DNA from: Natronobeatus ordinarius
Lineage (GTDB): Archaea > Halobacteriota > Halobacteria > Halobacteriales > Natrialbaceae
Reading direction: 5' to 3'
DNA length: 64,000 nucleotides
Assembly: GCF_024362485.1 (NCBI RefSeq)
Contig: NZ_CP101456.1
Coordinates: forward strand, 2,108,001-2,172,000
How positions within the stretch are numbered: the first letter of the stretch is position 1; each line of letters opens with the position of its first letter. The position numbers and the translations under genes are program-made. The notes under the pieces were generated by a model. That model was not told the origin of the DNA and did no database searches. It saw only the letters and a program-made list of their open reading frames with translations. Below are positions 3,950 through 50,870 of this stretch, one piece after another.

Positions 3950-4102
3950 ACCCTCCGTACGAAGAGCGACGGTTTAGTAGTTGCTGTGCGTTAACATTGA
4001 TCACAGAATGTCGCGAATTCATCGATACCGGGGCCGATCTCGTGTCACCAGTGGCCGATCACCCACAATCCTGTCGTGATCGGTCGCTTCCACTCGAAGA
4101 CA

Positions 4103-4110
4103 TTTATTAG
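4103..4110 (+). promoter_or_regulatory. TATA box fixing a leaderless start
   Basis: TTTATTAG is centred about 26 bases before the ATG at 4133. An in-frame GTG 15 bases upstream of that ATG lies too close to this element to be on the transcript, so the ATG is chosen as the leaderless start of the amphi-Trp gene. Confidence 0.6.
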
Positions 4111-4132
4111 TACTAACGTGGCAGACAGACTC

Positions 4133-4435
4133 ATGGGAAACGACGTCAACCTCCCCGCAGATCGGGCGACCGAGCGCAAGGTGATCACCGACGGCTTCTT
4201 CGAACGGGAGGTCTACCTCTCCCGGGAGGAGACGGCGACGTTCCTCCGCGACCTCGCCGACTCGATCGACGACGGAACCACGCTGACGATCTCGAGTACG
4301 GAGTGGGAACTCCCCTTCGAGTACCGCGAGCCGATCGAGGTCGAGATCGAGTTCACGAATCACCGAGAGCGTGAACTCGAGGTCGAACTCGAGTTCACCG
4401 AACCGAACGGCGGGGGCGATCTGCACGTGAAGTGA
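4133..4435 (+). CDS. Amphi-Trp domain-containing protein
   Basis: 100 aa. The order REVYLSREETATFLRDLADSI, then a beta-rich segment with the Trp of EWELPF, then alternating acidic/hydrophobic strands EVEIEF and ELEVELEF, matches the amphi-Trp family, which is widespread in haloarchaea and of unknown function. It overlaps the following GTG-started methyltransferase gene by four bases, so the pair is co-transcribed and probably coupled. Confidence 0.75.
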   Translation: MGNDVNLPADRATERKVITDGFFEREVYLSREETATFLRDLADSIDDGTTLTISSTEWELPFEYREPIEVEIEFTNHRERELEVELEFTEPNGGGDLHVK

Positions 4436-5253
4436 CCGCCGAACGCAACCGGTGTGGACCGTCCACGCGGGATCGAGGCGGTCGTCGCCTCGTTCGGGCC
4501 GTCACCCCGCGGTACTACTTCGGGATCTACCACTGGCGGCGACGTGGGCGGCGACTGCTCGTTGCACTGGCAGTCGCGGCGAGCGGCGCGGTCGGCTGGC
4601 GACTGGGCACCAGCCGGTGGGACCGAACGGTCGCCGTCGTCGCAATCGGGCTCGGCCTCGCTCGAGTCGGTTCGACGCTCCGGACGCTGCTCTCGCCGCC
4701 GCCGTGGGCACTCGAACGGTACAAGTACGTCGCCCTCGCCGACGAACTCACCATCGAGGACGGCACCCGTTTGCTCGACGTGGGCTGCGGAACGGGACGC
4801 TCGCTCGTCGGGTTCGCTGACCAGCTTCCGGCGTCGGCCGCCGTCGTCTGCCTGGACGTCTTCGACGACCGGGTGATCCTCGGCAACGCGCCCGCCCTCG
4901 CGCGACGGAACGCCCGCCGGGCCGGCCTCGAGGCGATGCCCGTCCGGGGCGACGCGAGCCGGCTCCCCATCGCCGACGACTCCCAAGACGTCGTCACGGC
5001 CTGCCGAGTGCTTCACGACCTCCCCGCGACGGCGATCGAGCCGGCACTCGAGGAATTCGCCCGCGTCCTCGCCCCCGACGGGGTTCTCGGCGTACTCGAG
5101 TTGCCGCTCACGCCAGCAGGTATCGACGCGGATCCCGAGACGTACTGGCTCGAGCGCATCGAGGAGGCGGACTTTCGACTCGAGACGGTTCAAAGGCTCC
5201 CACGACGAAAATCGGACGAAGCGTACCTGCTCGTAACGGCGTCGCCGGCATAA
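4432..5253 (+). CDS. Class I SAM-dependent methyltransferase with N-terminal membrane segments
   Basis: 273 aa, GTG start overlapping the preceding stop. Two hydrophobic stretches (LLVALAVAASGAVGWRLG and TVAVVAIGLGLARVG, about residues 42-80) precede the methyltransferase core with motif I LLDVGCGTGRS (114-124), acidic motif II VVCLDVFD and motif III-like DSQDVVTACRVLHDLP. This is a small-molecule or lipid methyltransferase held at the membrane; the substrate is not evident. Partner of the upstream amphi-Trp protein by gene overlap. Confidence 0.85.
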   Translation: MTAERNRCGPSTRDRGGRRLVRAVTPRYYFGIYHWRRRGRRLLVALAVAASGAVGWRLGTSRWDRTVAVVAIGLGLARVGSTLRTLLSPPPWALERYKYVALADELTIEDGTRLLDVGCGTGRSLVGFADQLPASAAVVCLDVFDDRVILGNAPALARRNARRAGLEAMPVRGDASRLPIADDSQDVVTACRVLHDLPATAIEPALEEFARVLAPDGVLGVLELPLTPAGIDADPETYWLERIEEADFRLETVQRLPRRKSDEAYLLVTASPA

Positions 5254-5270: not shown

Positions 5271-6989
5271 TCAGGCTTCCATCGAGAAGACCGCGAGCCG
5301 CGTGTCGCGGCCGCCGGTTCCCCGACGGAGCCAGCCGCTGCCGCCGATCTGGATGGCGACGTGCTGCTTTTCGGTCTCGGGATCGTACCAGCTCATCGGG
5401 CTGCCGGCGATCGACACCTCGCCGACGTCGTACTCCCAGAGGCGCTCGCCGGTCTCGCCGTCGTAGGCGATGAACTCGCCGTTCTGGGTGCCGGTGAAGA
5501 CGACGCCGGTCTCGGTCGTCATCGTGCCGCCCCAGATGTAGGCGTCGCTGTCGATCCAGTCGCGCCAGACGCGCTTGCCCGTCTCGGGGTCGATCGCGAC
5601 GATGGCGCTGATGTGGTCGTTGTAGTCCTCCGGGACTGCCTCGGTCTCGTCCTCTAAGATGCCGCCCCAGTACTTCTTGCCCTCCTCGTACTCCTCGAAG
5701 CGCCACCAGGCCTCCTGGGGCGAGTTGTTCATCTTGAAGTACGCGAGGCCGAGTTCGGGGTTGTAACACGGCGGCTGCCAGTCGTTCCCGCCCATCGCGC
5801 CGGGCATGAAGGGCATGCGCCGACCTTCGTCGATGTGTGGGATCATCTTGTACATGTTTAGCTGCTGGACGCCGGGCTCGCTGCGCTCGAGTAACTCGCC
5901 CGTGTCGGTGTCCATCGTGTAGACCCACGCCGTCTTGCCCGCGGAGACGACCACGTCGGTGGTCAGGTCTCGGTGGTCGATCTCCATGTCGCGAATGAGG
6001 ATCCGCGGCGCGGCGGAGTCGTAATCCCAGACGTCGTGGGCGACCTCCTGGTGACACCAGAGGTGCTCGCCGGTCTCCATATCGAGCGCGAGCGTGCTCG
6101 CGCTGTTGCGGTTCGGCCCCGGCCGGACGGAGCCGTCGAAGTCCGGTCCGGGGTTGCCGATCGGCAGGTAGAGGCGGTTCTTTTCGGTGTCGATCGTCGC
6201 GTTCATCCAGTTGGTCGCACACGACTGCTCGATGCTGTCGCCGACCCACTCCTCCTCGGGGGAGGTCCAGACGTGCCAGACCTCCTCGCCGGTCTCGGCG
6301 TCGAGGGCCGTGTGGAAGCCGCGGACGCCGTACTCACCGCCGGCGCTGCCGGTGAACACCTTGCCGTCGTAGACGACGGGTGCCCACGTCGCGGAGTAGC
6401 CGGCCTCGTGGTCGGCCGTGCTCGTGTACCACACCTCCTCGCCGGTGTAGCGGTCGAGCGCGACGACGCCCGAGTCGAGCGTCGTCATGAACACCTTGTC
6501 GTCGAGGACGGCGACGCCGCGGTTGTTGTCGTCACAGCAGAGGACGACGTCCGAGGGGACGGCGTAGGTGTAACTCCAGAGCACCTCACCCTCCCGGGCG
6601 TCGATGGCCTTCACGTGGTTCGGCCCGTTCGACTGGTACATCACCGGCGGGTCGCCGGGGACGATCAGCGGCGTTCCCTCCATGCTCGAGCCCGCGCCGA
6701 CGTGCATCACGTACTCGAGTTCGAGGTCGGCGACGTTGTCGGGCGTGATGACGTCGGCGGTCGTACAGCGGTGCTGTTCGTAGTTGCCGCCGTAGGTCAG
6801 CCACGCCTCCGGATTCTCGCCGGACTCGAGGAGCATCTCCTCGGTGACGTCGAATCTCGGAATTCGGTCGACGTCGTGCTGGTGGGTGATCGACTCCTCC
6901 GGAGAGCCGAGCACCCGATAGCCCTGGTCAGTTTCTCGTACGATCGTGTCCTGTGCGGCCTGAACGGCCCTGTCTTCTTCGATTCCCAT
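5271..6989 (-). CDS. PQQ-dependent alcohol/methanol dehydrogenase-like protein, lanthanide-type active site, no signal peptide
   Basis: 572 aa eight-bladed quinoprotein fold with repeated W-motifs (for example DRYTGEEVWY, DAETGEEVWH, DGETGERLWE). The vicinal cysteine pair Cys151-Cys152, which forms the disulfide over PQQ in methanol and ethanol dehydrogenases, is present. Active-site positions are Glu219 (GGEYGVRG), Asn279 (IGNPGP) and Asp322 in WDYD. Asp324, two residues after the catalytic Asp, is the residue that distinguishes lanthanide enzymes (XoxF, PedH) from calcium enzymes (Ala or Ser there). Unlike the periplasmic family members it starts MGIEEDRAVQAAQ with no Sec or Tat signal, and no cytochrome c gene is nearby. 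It follows an unrecognised gene by 79 bases, likely the same transcript. Natural substrate and PQQ supply are unknown. Confidence 0.85.
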   Translation of the reverse strand: MGIEEDRAVQAAQDTIVRETDQGYRVLGSPEESITHQHDVDRIPRFDVTEEMLLESGENPEAWLTYGGNYEQHRCTTADVITPDNVADLELEYVMHVGAGSSMEGTPLIVPGDPPVMYQSNGPNHVKAIDAREGEVLWSYTYAVPSDVVLCCDDNNRGVAVLDDKVFMTTLDSGVVALDRYTGEEVWYTSTADHEAGYSATWAPVVYDGKVFTGSAGGEYGVRGFHTALDAETGEEVWHVWTSPEEEWVGDSIEQSCATNWMNATIDTEKNRLYLPIGNPGPDFDGSVRPGPNRNSASTLALDMETGEHLWCHQEVAHDVWDYDSAAPRILIRDMEIDHRDLTTDVVVSAGKTAWVYTMDTDTGELLERSEPGVQQLNMYKMIPHIDEGRRMPFMPGAMGGNDWQPPCYNPELGLAYFKMNNSPQEAWWRFEEYEEGKKYWGGILEDETEAVPEDYNDHISAIVAIDPETGKRVWRDWIDSDAYIWGGTMTTETGVVFTGTQNGEFIAYDGETGERLWEYDVGEVSIAGSPMSWYDPETEKQHVAIQIGGSGWLRRGTGGRDTRLAVFSMEA

Positions 6990-7068: not shown

Positions 7069-7968
7069 TCACCGTGCGGGAGACGGCGCCCGCATCTCCT
7101 CGGTGATCCAGAAGGCGTCCTTACAGATCTCCTCCTGATTCACGATCGCGATCGCCGCCCCCGCGGTCAGCGCGGCGGTCAACTGCGCGTCAGAAAGCGG
7201 CCCGTCGTCGGCGACGTCGAGTGCCGCCCGGGACAGCAGATACACCCCGGCGAGCATCGCTTTGGCGTCCCGGTAGCCGTCGTCTAAGATCTCGTCGGTG
7301 AGCAAGTACTTCTTCTGCCAGTAGTGTACGTCGAGGGCGTTGATCCACAGCAAGACGCCGCCGGCAGCCCGCTGGTGTAACGGCGGGACGTGTTCGACGT
7401 CGAACTCGACGCCGTCGGGGATCTCTTTCGTCGGCACCCACCGTGCGAGCCGGTCGTTGTTGTTCACGACGTTCATCACGAGTGCGAGCCGCTCTCGCTC
7501 GTCGAACCCGAGGTCGGCGAGTTCGTCGGTGAGTTGCGCCGTCCGAATCAGTTCGTGAGCGGTGTGTTCGATGTGTTCCGGCGAGAATCGCGGCAGGTTC
7601 TCCTCTGCACTCTCGAAGAAGCCCACCTCGACGAGGTGATCGTAGATGCGCCAGCCCGGCTCGACGACCTCACGATACAGCCGCTCGGGTTCGTCCTCCC
7701 CCGCCGGAATGCCCGCTTCCCGGACCTCGGGTAACCGCTCGAGCTGGATCGCGAGGTTCTCGAGTTCCGCTTCGAGCAACGACGCGTCGAGCTTCCCCGA
7801 GAGGTCGTGCCGAATCGATTCGCCCATCGAAGCGAACGCCGGATCGGTCTCTTCCTCGATCGATTCGCGTACGTGTGCCAGCGTCAGCCGCTCACCGTCC
7901 CGAACGCGATCGATGCCGAGCGTTCGGGCCAGCTGACGCTGGGATTCGTCCGTGATCTGTGTGGTCAT
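7069..7968 (-). CDS. Uncharacterised alpha-helical protein co-transcribed with the PQQ-type dehydrogenase
   Basis: 299 aa from the ATG (MTTQITDES); a GTG seven codons earlier is an alternative. No known family recognised. It is acidic, soluble-looking and largely helical, with distinctive blocks ERLALVMNVVNNNDRLARW, INALDVHYWQKKYLLTDEIL and, near the C-terminus, IVNQEEICKDAFWITEEMR. There is no signal peptide or membrane span. Its position directly upstream of the dehydrogenase on the same strand suggests a partner, such as an electron acceptor adaptor, cofactor-handling protein or folding factor; this is inference from context only. Confidence 0.75.
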   Translation of the reverse strand: MTTQITDESQRQLARTLGIDRVRDGERLTLAHVRESIEEETDPAFASMGESIRHDLSGKLDASLLEAELENLAIQLERLPEVREAGIPAGEDEPERLYREVVEPGWRIYDHLVEVGFFESAEENLPRFSPEHIEHTAHELIRTAQLTDELADLGFDERERLALVMNVVNNNDRLARWVPTKEIPDGVEFDVEHVPPLHQRAAGGVLLWINALDVHYWQKKYLLTDEILDDGYRDAKAMLAGVYLLSRAALDVADDGPLSDAQLTAALTAGAAIAIVNQEEICKDAFWITEEMRAPSPAR

Positions 7969-8044
7969 GTGTGAGTTTTCGTGTGGCACGTGCTCTCACG
8001 AGCCATGCCGTGGTGTGGGGCCAACGTTGTAGTGTATAGCACTT

Positions 8045-8307: not shown

Positions 8308-10455
8308 ATGAATCTATCGGTGGCGGTGGCGCGACGACAGACGGCCGAGGGAGTAGTCGTGCTCGGTGCGGAGACGATGGCCGACCTCGGACTCGAGTCG
8401 GGTGACCACGTCAGCGTGGGAGCCGACGGACGGCGAGCGGTCGCGACCGTGGCTACCGGTGACGTCGACGACGGTGGCGTTCGGCTAACGGCTCGCCTCC
8501 GGCGTTCGCTGGCCGTGGCCGTCGGTGATCGGGTGGCCGTCGATCCCGTCGCCGTCGCCGACGCCGAGGGAGTTACGATCGCGCTGCCCGAGGAACTGAC
8601 GCTCGAGGCGGACGTCGGCTTGCACGTCCGGGACGCCCTCGTCGACCGAGCGGCCGTCGAGGGGCAGGTGCTCACGGTCACCCTCGGCTACGACTCACTC
8701 CCCGACCCCTCCCGTCGCCGCGTGCCGATCCAGGTGACGGAGACCGATCCGTCCGGCCCCGTCGTCGTGCGCGAGTGGACCGCGATCACGGTCGACGATG
8801 AGCCCGCCCCAGAGCTCGAGTCGTGGCACCGCTCGAGTCACTCCCGCTCTGCGGTCACCTACGACGACGTCGGCGGCCTCGAGGCGGAACTCGAGGCGGT
8901 GCGCGAACTGGTCGAGGTGCCGCTTTCCAATCCGGCGTTGTTCGACGACCTCGGCATCGAGCCACCCACCGGCGTCCTGCTCTACGGGCCGCCGGGAACC
9001 GGCAAGACCCTCATGGCGCGGGCGGTGGCGACCGAGGTCGACGCCCACCTCGAGACGATTTCGGGTCCCGAGGTCGTTTCGAAGTACTACGGCGAGTCCG
9101 AAGAACGCCTCCGCGAAGTCTTCGAGCGCGCTGAGACGAACGCGCCGGCGATCGTCTTCGTCGACGAGGTCGACTCCATCGCCCCGTCGCGCGAGGCGAC
9201 GGCCGGGGACGCCGAGTCCCGGATGGTCGCCCAGCTCCTCTCGCTGCTCGACGGCCTCGAGCGCCGGGCGGGGGTCGCCGTCGTCGGCACAACCAACCGC
9301 GAGCACGTCCTCGACCCCGCGTTGCGCCGCCCCGGCCGGTTCGATCGCGAGGTCGAGGTCGGCGTTCCCGACCGCGACGGCCGCGAGGAGATCCTGGAGA
9401 TTCACACCCGTGACGTCCCGCTGGCCGACGACGTCGACCTCGCCCGCTACGCCGACCGCACTCACGGCTTCGTCGGCGCCGACCTCGAGGGACTCGTCCG
9501 CGAGAGCGCGATGGAGGCTCTGCGGCGGGTTCGAACCGACGGCGACCGGCCGGCCGACGGACTCGAGATAACCGAGCGCGATTTCGGGCGCGCGCTGACG
9601 GGCATCGAACCCTCGGCGCTCCGTGAAGTGTTCGTCGAGGTGCCCGACGTCTCCTGGGACGACGTCGGCGGCCTCGAGAACGTCGAGAACCGCCTCCGAC
9701 AGACCGTCCAGTGGCCCCTCGAGCACCCCGAGGCCTACGAACGTGTCGACCTCACCCCGGCGAAGGGGCTGTTGCTCTACGGCCCACCGGGAACGGGCAA
9801 GACCTTGCTGGCGAAGGCGGTCGCCAACGAGTCACAGTCGAACTTCATCTCGATCAAGGGACCCGAACTCCTCGAGAAGTACGTCGGCGAATCCGAACGC
9901 GGCGTCCGGGAGATCTTCTCGAAGGCCCGCGAGAACGCCCCGGCGATCGTCTTCTTCGACGAGATCGACGCCCTCGCTGGCGAGCGCGGTCGGACGAGCG
10001 CCGATGCGGGCGTCGGCGAACGCGTCGTCTCCCAGCTGTTGACCGAACTCGACGGCCTGGAGTCGCTCGAGAACGTGGTCGTGATCGCCACCACCAACCG
10101 GCCCGACCTCCTCGACGACGCGTTACTTCGGCCCGGCCGGTTCGATCGCCACCTCCACGTGCCCGTCCCCGACGAGGACGCCCGGACGGCGATCCTCGAG
10201 GTCCACACCGCCGCAAAGCCGCTGGCCGACGACGTCGACCTCGAGCGACTCGCCCGGCGGACCGAGGGCTACGTCGGTGCGGATCTCGAGTCGATCTGTC
10301 GCGAGGCGGCGACGATGGCCGTCGAGGAGTACGTCGACGGCGACCGGACGCTCGAGGACCTCGCCCTCACGGCCGACCACTTCGAGCGGGCGCTCGCGGG
10401 ACTCGAGCCAACGACGGCGGGCGACGCGCGGTTCGAACTGGACGGAGCGGAGTAG
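8308..10455 (+). CDS. Cdc48/VAT-family AAA ATPase
   Basis: 715 aa with the full Cdc48 plan: an N-domain (residues 1-165, double-psi barrel type, [17 protein letters not shown]), then two AAA modules. D1 has Walker A GPPGTGKT and Walker [11 protein letters not shown]2 has Walker A GPPGTGKT and Walker [10 protein letters not shown]; each is followed by an SRH region ending in ALRRPGRFD or LLRPGRFD. The family forms hexamers that unfold proteins and feed the archaeal proteasome. Haloarchaea usually have several paralogs; this one is a little shorter than canonical Cdc48 and lacks the usual C-terminal extension beyond the D2 lid. Confidence 0.93.
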
Positions 10456-31215: not shown

Positions 31216-31367
31216 GTCGATTCACTATCTTCGAGGACGAGAGTGACGATGTCATTGAGTTGGTGGTGTGTCGAATTTGAGACCCCGAAGTTGTGACTAC
31301 GGGTGAGATGATGTATGGAATTTCCCTATGCAAAAAACATTTTGCGCTCGAGCGGCATTATCGAGGT

Positions 31368-32540
31368 ATGCCCTCCAGACGGAACGTTCTCCAGAGAGCC
31401 ACGACGGTAGCACTTATCGGTCTTGCCGGCTGTTTAGAGGACGTAAGACGCAGGGACGACGCGGAGCCGTCGTTCCCATCACGGTGGGAGTACCCGATCG
31501 CCGGTGCCAGATTCGGGCACCAATCCGGGAGTGGCCTCCTGCTCGCCGCGTCGGATACCGATGTGTTCGACCGTACACTCGTTGCACTCAACCCCGACAC
31601 TGGAGACTCCGAGTGGACGGTTCCCGGAGAGAGCGACGACCGACACGCCATCCAGGAGTTTACCTCGAGCAATCCGTCGATCGCACCGCCGACCGTCAGT
31701 GACGGAACCGCCTACGTCGTCACCGACAGAAACCACTGTGTGGCACTTGAGGTATCCACCGGCGCGCTGGAGTGGGAGACGGCAGTGTCGGGAGAAGCAA
31801 GCACATCGTGTACTGGCTCCGTGTCCGGACAGCCGATCACAGTCGGGGACCTCGTGTGCGTCGTCGTGTCGGCCGAAAACGACGAGTGGAACATCGTCGC
31901 ACTGGAGGCCGACAGCGGAGACGACCGGTTCACGTACAAGCTCGAGGGTGAACCGACGTGTTTGCCGAGAGGCGACGACGACTCGCTCGTTATCGCGGTG
32001 GACGACGGAACGATCGAATCGATCACCACTCACGGTGACCGACAGTGGAGGACCTCGAACGCCGGTCGAATCGTCGGCTTCGCTGTCGGTGACGAGACCA
32101 TATACGCGGGCGGAGTCGACAGGACGGTACGGGCGTTAGATCGGAGCGACGGGACAGAACGGTGGTCACTCGACCGCGAGACGACGACAGCGGAACCGGT
32201 CGTCGTCGATCGGACGGTCTTTCTCGGAACTACCGAGGAACTCCTCGCGGTGTCACCTGATGGCCAACTGCGCTGGCAGGAGTCGCTCGACACCGCACCG
32301 ACAGCTGTCGCAGCGTCGGACGACCACGTCCTTGCCGTCCGCGGGACCGAGCAGTGCCACACGCCCGCAGCCGTCTCGGCGTATCCACACATGGTTACGA
32401 TCCACGACAGAGAGACCGGAAACCGACTGCACGAATACGAGTACGACGGAGACGAGTCGCGACCGGTTGCGGCGGTCGAACTCGAGGGGGAACTCTACCT
32501 CTCGAACGGGTCGTTCGTTTTGTCGTTTAACCCGGAATAA
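31368..32540 (+). CDS. Tat-exported PQQ-repeat beta-propeller lipoprotein
   Basis: 390 aa. Starts MPSRRNVLQRATTVALIGLAGC: a Tat twin-arginine signal ending in a lipobox (GLAGC), so the mature protein is lipid-anchored outside the cell. The remainder is built from propeller repeats of the type ALNPDTGDSEWTVPG, ALEVSTGALEWETA, ALDRSDGTERWSLD, resembling BamB-like PQQ-repeat proteins that act as scaffolds and usually bind no cofactor. Stands alone just after the TnpB remnant; codon usage is a little less GC-rich than neighbours. Confidence 0.87.
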   Translation: MPSRRNVLQRATTVALIGLAGCLEDVRRRDDAEPSFPSRWEYPIAGARFGHQSGSGLLLAASDTDVFDRTLVALNPDTGDSEWTVPGESDDRHAIQEFTSSNPSIAPPTVSDGTAYVVTDRNHCVALEVSTGALEWETAVSGEASTSCTGSVSGQPITVGDLVCVVVSAENDEWNIVALEADSGDDRFTYKLEGEPTCLPRGDDDSLVIAVDDGTIESITTHGDRQWRTSNAGRIVGFAVGDETIYAGGVDRTVRALDRSDGTERWSLDRETTTAEPVVVDRTVFLGTTEELLAVSPDGQLRWQESLDTAPTAVAASDDHVLAVRGTEQCHTPAAVSAYPHMVTIHDRETGNRLHEYEYDGDESRPVAAVELEGELYLSNGSFVLSFNPE

Positions 32541-49454: not shown

Positions 49455-49472
49455 GGGTTGGAATCGGAACGC

Positions 49473-50870
49473 ATGCAAGAGAACGCTTCAGGAACGCCAC
49501 GTCGACTTGGTTCGACGGTCGACAGACGACGATTTCTCGGAACGACGGCGGCGATCGGCGCTGCGTCGGTTATCGGACTGTCGGGTATCGGGACCGCACG
49601 AGCAAGCGGAAACGAACTGTGGTCGTTCGAAACCGGTGATCTCGTCACCTCCTCACCAACGGTCGTCGACGGAACAGTGTACCTCAGCAGCAGCGACCAC
49701 CACGTATACGCGATCGACGCAACCAGTGGCAAAGAAGTCTGGTCGTTCGAAACCGGCGACACCGCCTGGTCGTCACCGAACGTCGTCGACGAAACGGTGT
49801 ACGTTGGCAGTGGGGACAACAACGTATACGCGCTGGAAGCAGCCACTGGAGAGGAAGTCTGGTCGTTCGAAACCGGTAACAGTGTGGGGTCGTCGCCGAC
49901 GGTGCTCGACGGAGTGGTCTACGTCACCAGCCAGGATGGAAACGTGTACGCCCTGGATGCGGCAGCCGGCGGGGAGCGGTGGTCGTTCGAAACCGAGAGT
50001 TGGTTTTCCAATGCACTGGTAGCCGTAGACGAGACGGTGTTCGTCGCCTCTAACGATCATACGCTGTACGCCTTAGATGCAACCACCGGCGACGAACGCT
50101 GGTCGTTCGAACTCGAGGAGGGAATACCCAGTTCACCAACAGTAGTCGGCGAAACGGTCTTTTTTGGCTTCTACGACCACGTGTATGCAGTTGACGTAAC
50201 TTCGGGTGAAGAGCAATGGTCGTTCCAGATCGATGGCCCCATAGATTCGTCGCCGACGGTGGCAGACGGGACGGTCTACGTCGGGAGCACAGACGCCAAC
50301 GTGTACGCACTGGACGCCAGTGACGGAGGCGAGATCTGGTCGTTCGAAACCGGCCGCTGGATTTATTCGTCGCCAACAGTGGCAGACGAGACGGTCTTCA
50401 TCGGCAGCCACGACCGCCACGTGTACGCCCTGGATGCAACAGACGGCGACGAGGTCTGGTCGTTCGAAACCGGCGGCCAGGTCGATTCGTCGCCGACGGT
50501 AGTCGACGGGGTACTCTACGTCGGGAGTCGCGACGGCAACGTGTACGCACTGGACGCGGGCGTCTCGGGCTCGAGCGAGTGCTCCCGTGTGACGCAGGGC
50601 GCGCTCGGCCACCACGACGACTGGGCCGCTGTTGCTGCAGCTGCAGCCGCCAGCACGAGTGCCGACGGGGCAGCCGATGCCGACTCGAGCGACGGTGGAT
50701 CAGACGATGGCGGATCGACTGACAGCGGTTCTGATGGCGACAGCTCGAGTGACGATGGTGGGTCGGAGGACGGGCTTCCCGGTTTCGGGATCGGTGGCGC
50801 ACTCGCCGGACTCGGCGGCGGTGCCTACCTGGTGAATCGACGGCTCACAGACGACTCCGAGCACCGGTAA
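49473..50870 (+). CDS. Secreted eight-repeat PQQ-type beta-propeller protein with PGF-CTERM-like tail
   Basis: 465 aa. Tat signal VDRRRFLGTTAAIGAASVIG (residues 16-35). Then eight near-identical propeller units, each containing WSFETG, SSPTVVDGTVY, VGS and NVYALDA, repeating every 40 residues. A Ser/Asp/Gly linker follows, then DGLPGFGIGGALAGLGGG, hydrophobic residues and RRL, which is the pattern of PGF-CTERM proteins processed by archaeosortase and lipid-anchored at the surface. No cofactor-binding motif or catalytic residues were seen, so a structural or ligand-binding role is likely. Confidence 0.88.
   Translation: MQENASGTPRRLGSTVDRRRFLGTTAAIGAASVIGLSGIGTARASGNELWSFETGDLVTSSPTVVDGTVYLSSSDHHVYAIDATSGKEVWSFETGDTAWSSPNVVDETVYVGSGDNNVYALEAATGEEVWSFETGNSVGSSPTVLDGVVYVTSQDGNVYALDAAAGGERWSFETESWFSNALVAVDETVFVASNDHTLYALDATTGDERWSFELEEGIPSSPTVVGETVFFGFYDHVYAVDVTSGEEQWSFQIDGPIDSSPTVADGTVYVGSTDANVYALDASDGGEIWSFETGRWIYSSPTVADETVFIGSHDRHVYALDATDGDEVWSFETGGQVDSSPTVVDGVLYVGSRDGNVYALDAGVSGSSECSRVTQGALGHHDDWAAVAAAAAASTSADGAADADSSDGGSDDGGSTDSGSDGDSSSDDGGSEDGLPGFGIGGALAGLGGGAYLVNRRLTDDSEHR

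Follow-up and report, generated by a model that had tools for sequence, protein, structure and literature searches.

Described quinoproteins and Tat hitchhikers

Lanthanide-type PQQ alcohol dehydrogenases such as PedH/ExaF (PDB entries 6zcv and 6zcw) and XoxF (4mae, 6dam and 6oc5) are enzymes of the periplasm; PedH has a signal peptide and hands its electrons to cytochrome c, and XoxF works with the partner proteins XoxG and XoxJ. To our knowledge, every lanthanide enzyme or PQQ alcohol dehydrogenase characterised so far works outside the cytoplasmic membrane. Gluconate 2-dehydrogenase is a Tat hitchhiker, i.e., an enzyme whose small subunit bears the Tat signal. PQQ alcohol dehydrogenases are described as the sole known lanthanide-dependent enzymes (PMC11996626). 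Archaeal DYD-type PQQ dehydrogenases are already known from marine heterotrophic Thaumarchaea, where some of the proteins carry the DYD motif and all lack the Cys-Cys pair, with signal peptides in 15 of 21 families and transmembrane domains in 19 (PMC7300363).

The window analysed here, a stretch of 64,000 nucleotides from the haloarchaeon Natronobeatus ordinarius, encodes a dehydrogenase of this kind next to an all-helical partner protein, P0002 (Table 1). The dehydrogenase has its fold, vicinal cysteines, metal ligands and extra Asp in common with PedH/ExaF, but it shares only 27% identity with PedH, which has no helical partner. With XoxF it shares the WDYD motif, the Cys-Cys pair and the Glu and Asn ligands, whereas it differs in having no signal, another partner and other neighbouring genes. 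Unlike for the haloarchaeal enzyme, no helical partner of the P0002 kind is described for the Thaumarchaea in the passages of PMC7300363 that were consulted. Gluconate 2-dehydrogenase resembles deep haloarchaeal relatives of our pair in placing a small helical subunit with an RRxFLK signal beside a signal-less catalytic subunit; in contrast to it, P0002 has no Pfam or NCBIfam match to the small subunit, the catalytic subunit of the window is a predicted quinoprotein, and the signal has been lost. A search of the openly accessible literature found no description of the haloarchaeal dehydrogenase/partner pair.

Table 1. Coordinates of the features of the window that are discussed in the text.
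Feature	Position	Strand	Remarks
Amphi-Trp domain protein	4076..4435	(+)	overlaps methyltransferase start by 4 nt; recurrent A1 neighbour
SAM methyltransferase	4432..5253	(+)	convergent with dehydrogenase; recurs beside A1 pairs
PQQ alcohol dehydrogenase catalytic subunit	5271..6989	(-)	572 aa plus stop; lanthanide-type metal motif; no signal peptide
HDVWDYD motif	6018..6038	(-)	D322, putative catalytic base; D324, extra Asp of lanthanide enzymes
Vicinal Cys151-Cys152	6534..6539	(-)	kept in 49 of 69 homologues; lost in deep Tat clades
Partner gene P0002	7069..7968	(-)	299 aa from ATG at 7968; GTG at 7989 possible; all-helical
CDC48-type AAA ATPase	8308..10455	(+)	divergent from the pair; near the pair in most A1 loci
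BamB-like PQQ-repeat protein	31293..32540	(+)	RR export signal
BamB-like PQQ-repeat protein	49458..50870	(+)	RR export signal and PGF-CTERM anchor

A divergent PQQ alcohol dehydrogenase with a lanthanide-type metal site

The 572-aa protein matches TIGR03075 (PQQ-dependent methanol/ethanol dehydrogenase) with E = 1.7e-113 and 380 bits, below the curated cut-off of 480, and the Pfam PQQ family with E = 2.2e-58. Its top sequence match in the PDB is PedH (6zcv/6zcw; E = 1e-69), and PedH 6zcv is also the best match of its predicted fold (E = 6.9e-39), with XoxF and MxaF matched as well. By sequence and by its predicted eight-bladed propeller, the protein is a divergent member of TIGR03075, and at the level of these profile and fold matches, which exclude chance, it is confirmed as a genuine member of the PQQ alcohol dehydrogenase family. 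The genome of N. ordinarius holds a single copy whose closest relatives are proteins of Natribaculum and Natronococcus, and a homologue is present in 74 of the 392 genomes of the order (E <= 1e-40). The comparisons below refer to a set of 69 distinct haloarchaeal loci.

A preliminary description of the locus had listed C151-C152, E219, N279, D322 and D324, and we found all of these residues exactly as claimed. It had also taken D324 for the additional Asp of lanthanide enzymes, and this assignment stands: the WDYD of the dehydrogenase falls on the WDYD of XoxF 4mae (and on the WDFD of PedH), which puts D324 at the position of that Asp and not away from the metal site. More broadly, E219, N279, D322 and D324 align to ligands of 4mae and 6zcv. 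D322 and D324 are invariant among the homologues (69/69), as are R157 and K352 (69/69), and all four metal ligands are kept in 64 of the 69. As controls, the position of D324 is occupied by Lys in the Paraburkholderia outgroup sequence L075 (WDFK) and by Thr in ADH-IIG and the Comamonas enzymes. In L083, the most divergent dehydrogenase of the set, WDRD replaces WDYD. The window protein and clade A (see below) have the PQQ-contact set E104, C151-C152, R157, T201, S215, T259, W261 and K352. Because the AlphaFold model of the dehydrogenase is weak at residues 282-294 and 318-320, beside the metal loop, the metal geometry rests on the alignment and not on the model.

No export signal on the dehydrogenase

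The dehydrogenase had further been described as having neither a Sec nor a Tat signal, which agrees with its hydrophilic N-terminus (best 13-residue Kyte-Doolittle mean of -0.12). Among orthologues, its conservation begins at residue 1, and in most close orthologues the ATG is preceded by just 1-4 in-frame codons. In the window, the open frame runs around 50 codons further upstream, where it overlaps the neighbouring gene at its 3' end; this extension contains no ATG, GTG or TTG. The upstream frame and the orthologue N-termini thus rule out a missed start with a hidden signal peptide, both in the window and in its orthologues, and no evident signal was found on the dehydrogenase itself in any of the homologues. 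The signal that goes with the periplasmic or extracellular location of the lanthanide group is absent from dehydrogenase and partner alike in the window's clade. Two BamB-like PQQ-repeat proteins of the window with RR export signals (Table 1) provide an internal contrast to the signal-less dehydrogenase. As a separate observation, the PQQ alcohol dehydrogenase of a Streptomyces plasmid (L126:1303-3099, (+) strand) has the motif WDYDS and no evident signal, so that signal-less members may not be restricted to archaea.

A conserved partner protein and the decay of its Tat signal

P0002 is encoded directly upstream of the dehydrogenase on the same strand, and the two genes are adjacent in 67 of the 69 homologous loci, forming a conserved two-gene unit. 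The two loci without an adjacent partner are L020, which stems from a MAG, and the very divergent L083, where a distant partner homologue (L083:5635-6444, (-) strand; 85 bits) faces away from the dehydrogenase. The model of P0002 is all-helical (pLDDT 88, pTM 0.89), and it found no PDB fold match better than E = 0.33; neither Pfam nor NCBIfam contained a family for the protein. With no match in any of these three collections, we rejected a known subunit or a PqqC-like protein as its identity, and the TenA-like structure 2gm8 (E = 2.9) was dismissed as noise. A plasmid-wide translated search for P0002 gave matches in haloarchaea only.

The partners of deep clades start with a Tat motif, e.g., DRREFLKALGVIAGAGVAGAT in L086. 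This trait of Tat hitchhikers was found in the deep relatives L086 and L082, whose partners pass the TIGR01409 cut-off of 16.7 bits (21.1 and 19.4 bits, respectively), and not in L028 or the window, whose own partner has no TIGR01409 match; the partners of the intermediate loci L092, L093, L094 and L104 score 12.6-16.0 bits, i.e., 0.7-4.1 under the cut-off. At the position of the Tat motif, the window partner reads QRQLARTLGIDRVRDGERLT, without a twin arginine or a hydrophobic core, and its N-terminal QRQLARTLGI aligns with the motif of the deep relatives. The best N-terminal hydropathy is -0.23 for the window partner compared to at least 1.24 (mean 1.65) for the rows with a Tat signal.

A maximum-likelihood tree with outgroups from bacteria places clade A (43 rows without a Tat signal; SH-aLRT 97) within a set of lineages that bear one, and the Tat state changes 3 times, as opposed to 16.6 times for shuffled labels. 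Clade C represents a second, partial loss of the partner's Tat signal. Judged by alignment and tree, the signal of the partner has decayed in the window's clade, and the ancestral dehydrogenase/partner complex was probably a Tat hitchhiker; the Tat signal of the partner's relatives explains how the family is exported elsewhere.

Neighbouring genes and possible electron acceptors

In 27 of the 37 loci of the Tat clades and sister clade A2 taken together, a blue-copper gene is close to the dehydrogenase gene, follows it directly or is fused with it, compared to 0 of the 30 loci of clade A1, to which the window belongs. Conversely, 23 of the 30 A1 loci and 0 of the 37 others have a [2Fe-2S] ferredoxin gene (Pfam Fer2) at a distance of no more than 3 kb. 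Both counts were tallied by hand, and the Fisher p values for these contrasts (4e-12 and 1e-10) ignore common descent, with few events on the tree. Where present, the ferredoxin gene is usually on the strand opposite to the dehydrogenase; none is found within several kb of the window's own dehydrogenase. The blue-copper genes of clade A2 have Tat signals of their own and lie 0-19 nt downstream of the dehydrogenase, so the A2 complex may still be exported through its copper protein, while no candidate for a copper protein with a Tat signal was found near the A1 loci. In L085, a related dehydrogenase begins with a fused halocyanin domain (L085:6548-8845, (+) strand; Pfam Copper-bind, 25 bits), a hint at what probably accepts the electrons in the exported clade.

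Besides the recurrent neighbours listed in Table 1, several A1 relatives encode an aldehyde:ferredoxin oxidoreductase near the dehydrogenase, and some have a cupin, a VOC protein or sodium/calcium antiporters. L133 encodes a tandem of three NMT1/THI5-type proteins that are annotated as substrate-binding proteins of ABC transporters (L133:5063-7922, (-) strand), with equivalents in L108, L012, L099, L088, L026, L029, L030 and L135; a cupin, frequently together with a VOC protein, is encoded next to them. The three copies of L133 and two of L077 have no signal peptide and may thus be enzymes. The sodium/calcium antiporter genes recur near the dehydrogenases of L132-L134, L105, L116, L033, L025, L113, L087 and L101 and are possibly linked to metal supply.

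A probable cytosolic enzyme and the alternatives

The sequence claims of the preliminary description all hold, and its interpretation is borne out in part; the partner protein, the change of neighbours and the missing PQQ synthesis genes alter the picture. From the sequence evidence, we consider it rather probable that the dehydrogenase and P0002 form a cytosolic lanthanide-type quinoprotein alcohol dehydrogenase of two subunits that was relocated when the partner lost its export signal. The ancestral complex would have been folded and loaded with metal and cofactor in the cytosol, exported as a Tat hitchhiker and used to reduce blue-copper proteins outside the cell. Once the partner had lost its Tat signal in the lineage of the window, the complex would have remained in the cytosol and switched its acceptor, most likely to a [2Fe-2S] ferredoxin. 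Catalysis would proceed by hydride transfer from the alcohol, with D322 as base and with a quinone and a lanthanide-type metal at the active site, and the electrons would pass singly to ferredoxin. A role in assembly is possible for the CDC48-type ATPase. The quinone would come from import or from a synthesis route that escaped recognition, and the cell would consume the product aldehyde internally, in some relatives perhaps via the nearby aldehyde:ferredoxin oxidoreductase. The most elaborate version, which combines a cytosolic rare-earth quinoprotein, loading by the helical partner and the CDC48-type ATPase, ferredoxin as acceptor, an import or synthesis route for the quinone that is new to archaea and an origin from an exported enzyme by loss of the partner's Tat signal, is doubtful as a whole.

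It seems unlikely to us that the complex still leaves the cytosol as a hitchhiker on a Tat-signal protein from another locus and, like its relatives, acts outside the cell. The sister clade A2 illustrates how this could come about, since its partner is without a Tat signal and yet a blue-copper gene with such a signal follows the dehydrogenase, so that a different subunit may have taken over the export signal; the retained vicinal cysteines, which usually form a disulfide, would also fit an exported enzyme. However, blue-copper genes are absent near the A1 loci, no Tat signal was seen among the recurrent neighbours that we examined, and the neighbouring redox protein is a ferredoxin of cytosolic type.

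The other alternatives accept a cytosolic enzyme or concern its cofactors. A search for pqq genes, as the preliminary description had proposed, recognised no genes of PQQ synthesis in the organism's own genome or in the class: PqqC was found in 0 of the 28 carrier genomes in a search that matched the positive-control replicon at 352 bits, none of 391 Halobacteria genomes had a PqqC above the cut-off, PqqB and PqqE gave only sub-threshold matches in haloarchaeal genomes, and PqqD was not found in the genome of N. ordinarius. One PqqB-like protein (L130; G559:C3:228020-228796) reaches 114 bits, well above the other haloarchaeal matches and below the curated cut-off. The carriers would thus either import PQQ, make it by an unrecognised route or use another quinone. 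These null results, together with the existence of empty quinoproteins (TIGR04528), speak for a cytosolic enzyme without PQQ that carries some other quinone or whose fold now serves another role. We nevertheless regard this as quite unlikely: R157, D322, D324 and K352 are retained in all 69 homologues and E104, T201, S215, T259 and W261 throughout the window's clade, which argues for PQQ or a very similar cofactor, and numerous bacteria that have PQQ enzymes take the cofactor up instead of making it. A somewhat unlikely variant is that the metal in vivo is Ca2+ despite the lanthanide-type motif. It would suit the sodium/calcium antiporter genes that recur near the dehydrogenases of clades A1, A2 and C and the scarcity of lanthanides in alkaline brines, but it sits poorly with a D324 that never varies among the homologues, compared to the Lys and Thr of the controls.

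Implications

The dehydrogenase/P0002 pair brings with it a protein family without a known fold match. If the enzyme is truly cytosolic, both a lanthanide and PQQ would need to enter the cell, a new electron acceptor would be required, and a route to PQQ would have to exist in a class without recognisable PqqC. The pair would then offer a testable case of an enzyme that switches compartment through the loss of its partner's export tag.
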